Part shown: piece after piece, positions 4,247-60,448 of the stretch | How positions within the stretch are numbered: position 1 is the first letter of the stretch | Layout of the letters: each line of letters opens with the position of its first letter | Source: Jiella mangrovi | Lineage (GTDB): Bacteria > Pseudomonadota > Alphaproteobacteria > Rhizobiales > Rhizobiaceae | Reading direction: 5' to 3' | DNA: 64,000 nt | Assembly (NCBI RefSeq): GCF_017815135.1 | Contig: NZ_JAGJCF010000010.1 | Location: 1 to 64,000, forward strand | The notes under the pieces: generated by a model | What the model was told of the DNA's origin: nothing | The model's input: only the letters and a program-made list of their open reading frames with translations | Database searches by the model: none | Position numbers and translations under genes: made by a program

Positions 4247-4483
4247 ATGGACATTCGATTCTCGAACGCGGCCCGTCGAGGTCTGAAAGCCATGCCTGCC
4301 AAAGATCAGGCGGCAATGGTCACCAAGCTCATCCGCTACGCCGACACTGGCGAGGGCGACGTCGTCAAGTTGACGGATCAGACGGGGTATCGCCTGCGGC
4401 ATGGAAACTGGCGTGCGGTGTTCGAGCTGATCGACGGGATCTACGTCGTCAAAATCGCCCACAGGCGAGAAGTCTATCGTTGA
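4247..4483 (+). CDS. RelE/ParE-like toxin of a type II toxin-antitoxin pair
   Basis: A 78-residue basic protein with the RelE/ParE-fold features TKLIRYADTGEGDVVKL, RLRHGNWRAVFEL and a C-terminal HRREVYR. In the RelE family these residues lie around the mRNA-cleaving groove. ATG 4247 is preferred over an in-frame GTG at 4229 because GGA lies seven bases before the ATG. It is followed after 12 bases by an HTH antitoxin gene, a toxin-first order as in higBA. The pair stands opposite to the glp operon it interrupts. Whether it acts as an mRNA interferase or a gyrase poison cannot be told from sequence. Confidence 0.82.
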   Translation: MDIRFSNAARRGLKAMPAKDQAAMVTKLIRYADTGEGDVVKLTDQTGYRLRHGNWRAVFELIDGIYVVKIAHRREVYR

Positions 4484-4870: not shown

Positions 4871-4923
4871 CATTCCCTCGCCCTTCGAGGCCGCCTGCGG
4901 CGACACCTCAGGATGAGGGAATG
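4871..4923. repeat. Palindromic REP-like element A1
   Basis: Inverted repeat with outer arms CATTCCCTCGCCCTTCGAGG and CCTCAGGATGAGGGAATG and a central GCCGCC/GGCG stem. It belongs to the most frequent repeat family of the window (family A, eight copies) and pairs head-to-head with A2. Confidence 0.9.
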
Positions 4924-4994
4924 GGGTGGCGATGGAGCTTTTCCAGCAGCTCGAGCAAAACGCGGCGTCTCCAGTCTGCCGCCGCCCTAGCAGT

Positions 4995-5047
4995 CGCCCC
5001 CTCATCCTGAGGTGCGAGCGCAGCTCGCCTCGAAGGGCGAGGGGGCG
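4995..5047. repeat. Palindromic REP-like element A2
   Basis: Reverse-oriented family A copy. The outer arms are CGCCCCCTCATCCTGAGG and CCTCGAAGGGCGAGGGGGCG, and the inner stem is GAGC/GCTC. Together with A1 and the roughly 70 bases between them it forms a composite of about 190 bases (4862-5053), which recurs at 5447-5602. Confidence 0.9.
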
Positions 5048-5455: not shown

Positions 5456-5508
5456 CATTCCCTCGCCCTTCGAGGCCGCCTTCGGCGGCACCTCAGGATG
5501 AGGGAATG
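5456..5508. repeat. Palindromic REP-like element A3
   Basis: Same sequence type and orientation as A1, differing at a few bases in the centre (GCCGCCTTCGGCGGC). It opens the second composite repeat, 15 bases after the nuclease gene. Confidence 0.9.
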
Positions 5509-5543
5509 GGTTGACGTCGGAGCTTAGCCGCCGCCCTAGCAGT

Positions 5544-5596
5544 CGCCCCCTCATCCTGAGGTGCGAGCGCAGCTCGCCTCGAAGGGCGAGGGGGCG
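5544..5596. repeat. Palindromic REP-like element A4
   Basis: Identical to A2 over its whole length. A3-A4 repeats the A1-A2 composite with a deletion of roughly 35 bases in the spacer. It ends 29 bases before the glpQ stop codon. Confidence 0.9.
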
Positions 5597-26522: not shown

Positions 26523-29500
26523 ATGACCGACGAGACGAAACCAGAAGCCGGCATCGACTACGCCAAGACCCTCAACCTGCCGCAGACCGATTTCCCCATG
26601 CGCGCCGGGCTGCCCAAGGCCGAGCCGGAATGGCTGGCGAAATGGGACGGCATGGATCTTTACGGCAAGCTGCGTCAGGCGTCGAAGGGACGGCCGAAAT
26701 ACGTCCTCCACGACGGCCCGCCCTATGCCAACGGCAACCTCCATATCGGCCACGCGCTGAACAAGATCCTGAAAGACGTCATCAACCGCTCCTTCCAGAT
26801 GCGCGGTTACGACGCCAACTACGTCCCCGGCTGGGACTGCCACGGCCTGCCGATCGAGTGGAAGATCGAGGAGGCCTACCGCGCCAAGGGCAAGAACAAG
26901 GACGAGATCGAGATCAACGAATTCCGGAAAGAGTGCCGGGAATTCGCGACCCATTGGGTCGGCGTCCAGACGGAAGAGTTTCGGCGCCTCGGCGTCGAGG
27001 GCGATTTCAAGAACCCGTATCTCACGATGAACTTCGAGGCGGAGTCGGTGATCGCCGGCGAGCTGTTGAAGTTCGCCATGTCGGGCCAGCTCTATCGGGG
27101 GTCGAAGCCGATCATGTGGTCGGTGGTCGAGAAGACCGCGCTGGCCGAAGCCGAGGTCGAGTATCACGACTACGAGTCGGATACGGTGTGGGTGAAGTTT
27201 CCAGTGGCAGGGGATGGACGGCTCGCCGGCGCATCCGTCGTCATCTGGACCACCACCCCCTGGACGATGCCGGGCAACCGCGCGATCGCCTTCTCCACTC
27301 GCATCGCCTATGGCCAATACGAGGTCACGGCGCCCGAAGACGCCGACAACCCGCGTTGGGCGAAGCCGGGCGACAAGTTGATCCTCGCCGATGCCCTGGC
27401 TGCCGACGTCTTCGCCAAGGCGCGCGTGCCGGAAGGCGGATGGCGGAAGGTAGCCGACGTGAAACCGTCCGATCTGCAGGGTCTCGTCGTGGACCACCCG
27501 CTGAAGGGTTGGGCGACAACCTCCCCCTTGAGGGGAGGTCCGAGAGCCGAAGGCGATCGGGGTGGGGGTGATGCCGCAACGCCTGTCCTGGGCGATCCCG
27601 CTCGGCGCTCGGCACGGGACCCCCACCCTCAATCCCTCCCCACAAGGGGGAGGGAGGTCTCTGTGCCATATTCCTTCCCCGTCCCCCTCATCGCCGGCGA
27701 TCACGTCACCGACGATGCCGGCACCGGCTTCGTCCACACCGCGCCCGGCCACGGCCGCGAGGACTTCGACGCCTGGATGGAGATGCGCCGCGATCTCGAA
27801 GCGCGCGGTATCGACACGGCGATTCCCTTCACCGTCGACGATGACGGCTTCTATACCAAGGACGCGCCGGGCTTCGGGCCGGATGCCGAGGGCGGGCCTG
27901 CGCGGGTCATCGACGACAAGGGCAAGAAGGGTGACGCCAACAAGCGCGTCATCGCCGCACTGATCGAGCAGGGAAATCTGCTGGCGCGCGGCCGGCTGAA
28001 GCATTCCTATCCGCATTCGTGGCGCTCGAAGAAGCCGGTGATCTTCAGGAACACGCCGCAGTGGTTCGTTCATATGGACCGGGACCTGGGTGGCTATGGG
28101 CTGGAGGGCGCACCCTCGCCCTTCGAGGCTCCGCTTCGCTCCGCACCTCAGGATGAGGGTGCTAGCGTCGCGGCCTCCGCTGACGGTGCTGGCGCCAGTG
28201 CTTCCACAAGCGCTGAAGCTGCAGCCGCAAACGCTAGCCCTCATCCTGAGGTGCCGCCGCAGGCGGCCTCGAAGGGCGAGGGCGGCTCGCAGCAGCCCTC
28301 GGCCGAAGGCCGCAAGCCCGAACGGGCGTTGGCCGGTCAGGCCGCCCCCGCGGAGCGCAGCCGCGCCAGCGGCGACAGCGTGAGCGAAAATAGCTTGGAT
28401 ACCCTCCGCTCCCGCGCCCTCTCCGCCATCGACCACACCCGCTTCGTCCCCGCCTCCGGCCAGAACCGCCTGCGCGGCATGATCGCCGACCGGCCGGACT
28501 GGGTGCTGTCGCGCCAGCGCGCCTGGGGCGTGCCGATCTGCGTCTTTGCCGATGCGGACGGCAATGTCCTGAAGGATGACGCCGTCAACGCCCGCATCCT
28601 CGAAGCCTTCGCCAAGGAAGGCGCCGATGCGTGGTTCGCCGCTGGCGCCAAGGAGCGATTCCTCGGCAACGAGCACGACGTCTCGAAATGGACCATGGTC
28701 CGCGACATTCTCGACGTGTGGTTCGATTCCGGCTCGACCCATGCCTTCTGCCTGGAACAGCGCCCTGACCTAAAATGGCCGGCGGACCTTTATCTCGAAG
28801 GCTCCGACCAGCATCGCGGCTGGTTCCACTCCTCGCTTCTGGAAAGCTGCGGCACGCGCGGCCGGGCGCCCTATGACGCCGTCCTCACCCATGGCTTCGT
28901 CATGGACGAGGAGGGGCGCAAGATGTCGAAGTCGCTCGGCAACGTCGTCACCCCGCAGGAGGTGATCAAGCAGTCCGGCGCCGACATTCTCCGGCTCTGG
29001 GTGGTTTCGTCGGATTATTCGGAGGATCTGCGTCTCGGCAAGACGATCCTCCAGACCAATGTCGACAGCTATCGCAAGCTCAGAAACACCATGCGCTGGA
29101 TGCTCGGCACCCTCGCTCATGACGAAGGCGAAACGGTGCCGCTCGATCAGATGCCCGAGCTCGAACGGCTGATGCTCCACCGCATCGCCGAACTCGACGA
29201 GGTCGTGCGCAAGGGCTACGACGCCTTCGACTTCAAGCGGGTCGCAAGGGCGCTTCTCGATTTCGTCGTCGTCGAGCTTTCGGCCTTCTATTTCGACGTG
29301 CGCAAGGACGCGCTCTATTGCGATCCGATCTCTTCGGTAAAACGCAAGGCGTCCCTTCAGGTGGTGCGGACGCTGTTCGACCATCTCGTCACCTGGCTCG
29401 CGCCGATGCTGCCCTTCACCATGGAAGAGGCCTGGCTCGAGCGCTATCCCGACGCCGTGTCGGTTCATCTCGAACAGTTCCGCGCCGTCGATCCGGCCTG

Positions 29501-29915
29501 GAAGGACGAGGCGCTCAGCCTTCGCTGGCAGACGATCCGCAAGGTCCGCCGCGTCGTCATGGGCGCGCTGGAGGAAAAGCGCCGCGACAAGGTGATCGGC
29601 TCGTCGCTCGAAGCCTGGCCAACGGTACATGTCGCCGACGCCGAGACCCGCGCCCTCGTCGCAGCGTCGGATTTCGCCGAAACCTGCATCACCTCCGGGA
29701 TCGAGGTCAGCGGCGATCCGGCCCCGGAGGGCGCCTTCACCCTCGCCGACACGCCGGGCGTCGCCGTCGTCTTCGCCAAGGCCGAGGGCAGGAAATGCGC
29801 GAGATCCTGGAAGATCTCCGGCGATGTCGGCTCGGACCCCGACTATCCGGATGTCTCGGCGCGCGATGCCAAGGCCTTGCGGGAGCTGAAGGCCGCGGGC
29901 CGTCTTGCAGCATGA
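26523..29915 (+). CDS. ileS: Isoleucyl-tRNA synthetase with two repeat-derived insertions
   Basis: Charges tRNA-Ile. The class I landmarks are intact: HIGH at 74-77, the editing-domain segment [25 protein letters not shown], and KMSKS at 800-804. The protein has 1130 residues, about 150 more than usual. The excess lies in two blocks whose DNA is palindromic repeat. Residues about 330-380 (27511-27660) lie between HPLKG and the [16 protein letters not shown] segment of the editing domain. Residues about 525-625 (28096-28397) lie between MDRDLG and [12 protein letters not shown]. Both keep the frame and have no stop codons, and both flank conserved motifs without breaking them. The gene is essential, so the insertions are presumably tolerated surface loops. 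Confidence 0.95.
27519..27658. repeat. Palindromic element C inside ileS (editing domain)
   Basis: ACCTCCCCCTTGAGGGGAGGT opens the block, GGTGGGGGTG pairs with GACCCCCACCC further on, and CCCTCCCCACAAGGGGGAGGG closes it. This is a second repeat family, seen once in this window, resembling the T/C-rich intergenic palindromes of rhizobia. It is translated as a Pro/Arg/Gly-rich insert. Confidence 0.8.
28112..28160. repeat. Palindromic REP-like element A5 inside ileS
   Basis: ACCCTCGCCCTTCGAGG and CCTCAGGATGAGGGT form the arms, with GGCTCCGCTTCGCTCCGC at the centre. It has the same orientation as A1 and A3 and forms the left half of the second ileS insertion. A GCTAGCG motif follows it and is mirrored by CGCTAGC just before A6. 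Confidence 0.9.
28237..28283. repeat. Palindromic REP-like element A6 inside ileS
   Basis: GCCCTCATCCTGAGGTGC and CCTCGAAGGGCGAGGGC form the arms, with GCCGCCGCAGGCGGC at the centre. It is the reverse-oriented partner of A5, so the A5-A6 pair has the same architecture as A1-A2 and A3-A4. Confidence 0.9.
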
Positions 29916-60331: not shown

Positions 60332-60384
60332 TCATCCCTCATCCTGAGGTGCCACCGCAGGTGGCCTCGAAGGGCGAGGGATGA
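60332..60384. repeat. Palindromic REP-like element A7
   Basis: TCATCCCTCATCCTGAGG and CCTCGAAGGGCGAGGGATGA arms, centre GTGCCACCGCAGGTGGC. It has the A2-type orientation, here followed and not preceded by its partner. Confidence 0.9.
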
Positions 60385-60399
60385 CGGGCGCCGAGGCTC

Positions 60400-60448
60400 G
60401 CCTCTCGCCCTTCGAGGCTCGCTTCGCTCGCACCTCAGGATGAGGGGC
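60400..60448. repeat. Palindromic REP-like element A8
   Basis: GCCTCTCGCCCTTCGAGG and CCTCAGGATGAGGGGC arms, centre CTCGCTTCGCTCG. It has the A1-type orientation, so the A7-A8 pair is the mirror arrangement of the other three pairs. Confidence 0.9.

Follow-up and report, generated by a model that had tools for sequence, protein, structure and literature searches.

In-frame palindromic repeats of several families in two loops of isoleucyl-tRNA synthetase in Jiella and related bacteria

Palindromic repeats inserted in frame into protein-coding genes, ileS among them, are already known in kind (PMC3733652, PMC3767692). Rickettsia palindromic elements (RPEs), reported to be 100-150 bp long, have been tabulated for the genes of isoleucyl-tRNA synthetase (RPE-7), an ATP-dependent DNA helicase (RPE-7 or RPE-6) and excinuclease subunit C (RPE-6 or RPE-4); a given gene may carry different RPE groups depending on the species, and insertion hotspots are one of the two explanations given (PMC3767692). 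GTAG- and CGTC-tagged REPs, according to Di Nocera et al. (2013; PMC3733652), are short head-to-head palindrome dimers found mostly outside genes, with some intragenic; genes with intragenic copies include, in several bacteria, those for Uvr and recBCD proteins, DNA ligase and tRNA synthetases, and two Xanthomonas carry different REPs at about the same recB site. The Coxiella MITEs QMITE1 and QMITE2 are likewise described as overlapping or lying within ORFs (PMC5896051), and Br-REP1 and Br-REP2 of Bradyrhizobium as palindromic repeats, reported to be intergenic (PMC5082802). Our searches, made in open-licence papers, returned none on Jiella and palindromic repeats and none on ileS insertions in Hyphomicrobiales. 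As far as these searches show, what is new here is the presence of three families (A, B and C) in Hyphomicrobiales genes, the re-use by many families of two loops of isoleucyl-tRNA synthetase (IleRS) and one of the helicase PcrA, and a further repeat, T.

The sequence analysed (the window) is a stretch of 64,000 nucleotides (G000:C41:1-64000) from a 4.93-Mb, 41-contig draft genome of Jiella, a genus that we take to belong to the Aurantimonadaceae in the Hyphomicrobiales. Labels in G and L denote genomes and loci, respectively: G000 is the genome of the window, G002 J. flava, G003 J. avicenniae, G007 J. pacifica and G009 J. endophytica. The features of the window are:

26523-29915, forward strand: ileS, isoleucyl-tRNA synthetase (ORF of 1130 codons, 1130 aa)
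27513-27668 (about), forward strand: site I insert, a family-B palindromic pair, residues 331-382, in frame (fold z -5.2)
27520-27538, forward strand: family-B core copy 1, CCTCCCCCTTGAGGGGAGG
27635-27653, reverse strand: family-B core copy 2
28080-28397, forward strand: site II, the ileS stretch outside the family profile (residues ~520-625; TIGR00392 gap)
28113-28159, reverse strand: family-A element A5, 47 bp, translated as 16 residues
28160-28237, forward strand: A-pair spacer, Ala/Ser-rich, 78 nt, with GCTAGC close to either end
28238-28282, forward strand: family-A element A6, 45 bp, translated as 16 residues
about 28300-28393 (within 28284-28398), forward strand: repeat T, low-copy and dispersed, with a 35-residue reading, adjoining the A pair in ileS
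4875-5043, no strand assigned: A pair for comparison, outside coding-like ORFs, with a different spacer
5460-5592, no strand assigned: A pair for comparison, outside coding-like ORFs
60336-60446, no strand assigned: A pair for comparison, outside coding-like ORFs

This ileS is the only locus above the TIGR00392 cut-off in the G000 genome, and the second gene that might have made it dispensable was absent above that cut-off in the profile search. The profile match reaches position 429 at nucleotide 28079 and picks up again at 28398. Within the gap, A5 and A6 stand head to head (inverted) with 17-nt perfect arms and, together with their spacer (28113-28282), are read in frame as ~57 residues with zero stops. 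The palindromic pair that a sequence-only reading had proposed to lie in frame and stop-free within ileS was thus confirmed by the ORF, the inverted arms and the profile gap. That reading had treated 28096-28397 (~100 residues) as a single composite; the A pair and its spacer account for 28113-28282 and the remainder proved to be the separate repeat T. It had also held that the same GCTAGCG-flanked composite recurs elsewhere in the window, and here it was mistaken: both occurrences of GCTAGCG/CGCTAGC in the window are in the ileS copy, the GCTAGC spacer ends were not found at the other window A pairs, and the ileS spacer, used alone as query, matched just itself in the window. In ileS, the length and sequence of this spacer vary from species to species. 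The family-B pair at site I, unrelated to A, was absent from the sequence-only reading. The A pairs at 4875-5043 and 5460-5592 are 416 bp apart, and the close resemblance of their flanks would suit a partial duplication. A match to a known RNA family over the hairpin, mir-4847 (23.4 bits versus a gathering score of 100), was sub-threshold and judged to be due to chance.

All three families are dispersed. The A core, CCTCATCCTGAGGTGC, is present in 41 exact copies in the 4.93-Mb genome, or 56 with at most one mismatch, and family C (ATCTCCCCCCTTGNGGGGGAGAT, at most two mismatches) in 97 copies in G000 and none in G002; the reversed-pattern controls in G000 gave 0 in each case. The B core has 11 matches in G000 at up to two mismatches, 2 of them in ileS, and 27-368 copies in all six other genomes searched (those of L081, L085, L088, L089, L090 and L093; controls at most 1); the ileS inserts of L081, L088 and L089 are B-like, and those of L085, L090 and L093 resemble other families. 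Fetched A elements have mostly a 37-nt core (45 bp overall), and longer classes also occur. In an alignment of 37 copies (31 distinct) from G000, confined to the 37-nt-core class, 94.5% of the cells of a 17-pair hairpin were paired, and this collapsed once the partner was slid. Double-changed cells numbered 34 against a shuffled mean of 14.7 (0/500 shuffles as high); of the five covariation measures, two gave little or no signal (pairs with changes on both sides, 9/500; further pair types, 222/500). The reverse A copies of ileS and of a hydantoinase ORF have cores of 39 and 48 nt, a divisible-by-three class that makes up 5/59 copies among the fetched loci of the G000 genome; at such a length the reverse copy escapes the TGA that falls in frame in copies of the usual length, a post hoc reading of two cases. 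That the two additional nucleotides of A5 arose within ileS was considered and rejected, since extragenic copies with a 39-nt core are also present (L065, L068).

Like the GTAG/CGTC REPs, A and C form head-to-head dimers, although some A copies look single at the stringency of the search pattern; unlike them, A and C are without a fixed tag. The flank consensus of A and C had neither GTAG nor CGTC at a fixed position: within 14 nt of 58 A copies, GTAG was found once upstream and never downstream and CGTC seven times upstream and three downstream, and around 91 C copies GTAG was absent from the 14 nt upstream and found 10 times in the 34 nt downstream, the counts for CGTC being 10 and 4. An inverted pair around a spacer is also the presumed mobile unit of REPINs, which are associated with RAYT transposases. 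In G000, by contrast, the one match to a Y1 transposase (Y1_Tnp) itself has a stop and no A copy lies on its contig, so that no cognate RAYT flanked by the same repeat was found in that genome; the nearest C copies, among the matches listed, are ~25 kb off. Of MITE-type termini, the ileS A pair has the inverted pair, and the ileS comparisons established no clean target-site duplication, with a possible short direct repeat in J. endophytica only. QMITE1/2 share with the Jiella repeats that they are small, non-autonomous and overlapping or inside ORFs, but they are larger, and Br-REP1/2, likewise palindromes of Hyphomicrobiales, have consensus sequences that by eye are unlike A, B or C.

Comparison with the ileS of close relatives revealed a presence/absence polymorphism, with filled, scarred and empty sites. 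Among ten Jiella-group genomes, three have the A pair at site II (G000, G009 and G007), and the others a C pair (G005), a short C remnant or half-scar (G003), T alone (G008), a short non-palindromic stretch (G001) or nothing (G002, G004 and G006). Site I is occupied by B in G000 and in J. avicenniae (G003/L094), where the same B element sits at the same place, by C in G009 and G005 and, in G001, by an insert that is not palindromic; no insert is present there in G002, G004, G006, G007 or G008. In other genomes, B-like pairs were recognised at site II in two Mesorhizobium (L088 and L089) and in Tianweitania (L081), by peptide and, for L089, also by DNA; E-type ileS inserts are carried by G011, L083 and L084; and both sites are empty in G029. 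Repeat families A, B and C, scars and empty sites at the same places indicate that an essential IleRS has recorded repeated, tolerated invasions. Relatives with the same extra domain but no palindromic DNA had been named as a possible objection to insertion; these exist for the T tail only, in G008 and Fulvimarina manganoxydans (L098), and do not refute insertion because the A pair is absent from both. At site I of the ileS of a metagenome-assembled genome (L086), an A-like stretch is nested inside another repeat element, that is, two insertion layers in one loop.

The ileS A pair thus fits an in-frame intragenic palindromic repeat: it is dispersed, lies without a stop in an ORF of known function, and has orthologues that lack it. 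Its likeness to RPEs, put forward in the sequence-only reading, stands as regards the dispersed palindrome, the kept frame, the lack of stops and the loop being empty in some close relatives, and does not extend to the host order: Jiella belongs to Hyphomicrobiales, neither Rickettsia nor Wolbachia, and the likeness is of kind and not sequence-based. RPEs and the Wolbachia elements are, like the Jiella repeats, dispersed palindromes that keep the frame of the functionally assigned genes holding them, but the Jiella units are shorter and in head-to-head pairs, and have close relatives with empty sites and with other families at the same place.

To place these sites in a wider sample, a first IleS alignment of 20 relatives (G032, a wrong ORF, was disregarded) was followed by a set of 87 sequences, namely 90 (80 named loci, 9 fetched regions and the window) minus L140 (partial), L097 (stop) and one duplicate; nine of the 20 fetched regions entered this set directly and nine via named loci, G029 and G032 not being carried over. 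Inserts of at least 20 aa were present at site I in 11/87, at site II in 26/87 and in a third variable loop, near residue 231, in 36/87 (there 20-42 residues long). By a palindrome criterion (inverted-repeat arm of at least 12, or fold z of -5 or lower) that was chosen after seeing the values, palindromic inserts were 7/11 at site I, 13/26 at site II and 0/36 at the third loop, used as control, indicating that two loops accept palindromic elements and an equally variable third does not. Ordinary, non-palindromic inserts also occur at site II, for example in L091 and L110. These, and the draft state of the assembly (41 contigs), would be the grounds for attributing the insert to an assembly error or to chance palindromes in an ordinary variable loop. 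Against this stand the dispersal of A, the control loop, and the presence of the same A pair at the same place in J. endophytica (L080) and J. pacifica (L079), with a right junction identical to that of G000 and different spacers. On these sequence comparisons an assembly error behind the A pair appears unlikely, and error and chance taken together scarcely deserve credence.

In this set, every one of the 37 insertions at the two sites is in frame and stop-free, a count that the ORF filter favours and from which L097, a complete locus with a stop there, was left out. This bears on whether the repeats might be removed before or during translation, by RNA excision or by ribosomal bypass of the hairpin, to give a protein without them. 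Long hairpins are predicted for the ileS stretch, and ribosomal bypass hairpins exist elsewhere; excision or bypass would, however, require neither an open frame nor the lack of stops, and removal thus seems highly improbable. In the ileS of Aurantimonas marianensis (L097), an in-frame stop lies at site II near locus base 4453, directly before a T copy, and may be a lesion or a sequencing error.

In a sequence alignment to the solved IleRS structure 8c9e, query residues 327 and 389 at site I correspond to 301 and 308, with six residues bridging, and 517 and 626 at site II correspond to 414 and 416, with one residue bridging, where the inserts sit. CP1, the editing region, presumably includes site I and ends just short of site II. 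In an AlphaFold2 model (mean pLDDT 71.7, 41 sequences), whose best PDB matches were IleRS structures, residues 334-379 and 525-624 had pLDDT below 50 and no secondary structure, in a model that is not strong overall, since 189-216 and 497-517, for example, likewise fall below 50. The inserts are thus predicted to be disordered peptide. Such peptide might be adaptive, tuning IleRS in editing, stability or partner binding, and the filling of sites I and II in several genera (11/87 and 26/87) would agree with this. Adaptation is nevertheless quite improbable, given that one loop holds different sequences, that inserts are missing from close relatives, that the spacer varies greatly and that no structure is predicted for the inserts.

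We consider it very probable that mobile, non-autonomous palindromic elements insert widely and that within genes only in-frame, stop-free copies in tolerant loops are kept. REP/REPIN-like palindromic pairs (A and B, and C in relatives) would move around the genomes of Jiella and related bacteria by transposition, most copies ending outside genes. Where a stop-free copy landed in frame in a loop that tolerates disordered peptide, the host would survive and the copy would stay as translated protein, and different families would have entered the two IleS loops on several occasions, with partial clearance in between. The dispersal of the repeats, their polymorphic presence, the open frame and the predicted lack of structure speak for this reading; arrival by transposition, translation of the insert and its near-neutrality are inferred. 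Counting against it are the failure to establish a clean target-site duplication, the lone Y1 match with no A copy on its contig, ileS trees that do not unite the A carriers, the low third-position divergence of arms and T, the stop beside T in L097 and the two poor covariation measures for A.

Divergence within the A insert is uneven. Between G000 and G009, third-position differences were 1/31 in the arms, 0/30 in T, 7/15 in the spacer and 55/177 in the flanks (arms versus flanks, Fisher p=0.00036); between G000 and G007 they were 2/31, 2/19, 11/27 and 51/177 (p=0.0044), and between G009 and G007 3/31, 2/19, 5/15 and 40/177 (p=0.075). Arms and T being less diverged than the neighbouring codons argues against simple neutral decay, which does not predict this. 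The REP hairpin in the ileS mRNA or DNA might then be functional, for example by slowing ribosomes just after CP1 has been made, and be kept by selection. Consistent with this are the low arm divergence beside a spacer that differs at 7/15 and 11/27, the A6 loop, which is identical in the three species, A5, which is near-identical (the same in G000 and G009, slightly changed in G007), and the inner-stem covariation among A copies. Against it, the contrast is weaker for G009-G007, most relatives are without any hairpin there, and the B and C inserts show no dip or only a slight one in synonymous divergence (0.29 for B between G000 and G003, with 0.46 and 0.20 in its neighbours; 0.21 for C between G005 and G009, with 0.71 and 0.28). 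Moreover, T, hardly palindromic by itself (fold z 0.9 in G008), is as conserved as the arms (0/30, G000-G009), so that recent shared descent or conversion would explain the low arm divergence as well. A selected hairpin is hence improbable as the general explanation, if less so than an adaptive peptide; for the low divergence of arms and T beside a hypervariable spacer, hairpin selection, conversion and recent exchange are all possible.

The history of the A pair points in two directions. Trees of three parts of ileS conflict and are poorly supported at some points; they yield no group of the three A carriers that leaves out G008, G004 and G003, so precise losses or lateral exchange would be needed. 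The common right junction and the same or similar loop variants argue for a single origin of the A pair, followed by such losses or exchange.

Insertion into genes was not confined to ileS. In the G000 genome, 9/85 A or C clusters (3/30 for A, 6/55 for C) lie in coding-like ORFs, in a scan that demanded coding-like codon usage on both sides and a minimum score, and that may overlook cases or wrongly count them. Besides the A pair of ileS, these are:

L054:1-2559, in frame: A in the C-terminal extension of UvrB
L061:802-4200, in frame: A in a caprolactamase-like hydantoinase A/B ORF
L214:700-3630 (G000:C3), open frame: C in PcrA/UvrD helicase
L163:1103-3199 (G000): C pair in GlyS, glycyl-tRNA synthetase beta subunit
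L162, L165, L189 and L199, open frames: C elements in CobN, an ABC transporter permease-ATPase ORF, BchB (protochlorophyllide reductase) and an ATP-dependent DNA ligase

Because its C element sits between the permease and ATPase domains, the ABC transporter ORF may be two neighbouring genes in one open frame. Family-A peptides (PHPE...- and APQDEG-type) recur in ileS, the hydantoinase/caprolactamase-like ORF and uvrB, and 10/12 family-C copies in genes, counted by eye, are read in one frame as ISPxxGEM- or ISPxRGEI-like peptides. The Jiella targets (IleRS, GlyRS, PcrA/UvrD, UvrB and DNA ligase) overlap those reported for other repeats (PMC3733652, PMC3767692), and what makes genes for DNA repair and tRNA synthetases permissive to insertions, or attractive to them, hence becomes directly testable. 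In-frame palindromes in ileS and repair genes are thereby extended from Rickettsiales to Hyphomicrobiales, in an experimentally handier system in which close species have empty, A-, B- and C-filled and scarred forms of one essential enzyme. In this the Jiella group differs from the GTAG/CGTC REPs: its IleS and PcrA loops are common to several families over several genomes.

Repeat T had 17 matches in 8/10 Jiella-group genomes, 12 of them inside ileS (4), pcrA (7) or glyS (1). Two more are at uvrB (L203 by profile, L207 by flanking peptide), upstream or in an N-terminal extension, the start being uncertain, and the remaining 3/17 are non-coding or of unclear context. The glyS copy, in J. avicenniae (L211:1425-3986), has sequence surroundings that differ from those of the C pair in G000 glyS. 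The seven pcrA copies (L214, L202, L206, L208, L210, L212 and L213), in genes confirmed by profile in G000, G009 and G008 and otherwise assigned by flanking motif, share one place, between QYxWLRLLAQ and INICCVGDD. Next to T in pcrA, six genomes have C-like sequence, as C pairs in G000, G009 and G004 and as single units in G005, G003 and G001, and G008 has another stretch; the pcrA frame of G001 is broken at the site. A tentative reading, less likely than not, is that a pair of IleRS loops and a single PcrA/UvrD loop serve different palindromic elements as reusable landing pads, with T mainly gene-resident and usually beside REP units. If true, T and the unusually low third-position divergence of arms and T in ileS would mean that these repeats spread and are maintained as translated, not extragenic, elements. 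In J. pelagia, the ileS frame (L123) shifts at about residues 880-890, away from the inserts, and pcrA (L212) is also out of frame, perhaps in both cases through sequencing errors.
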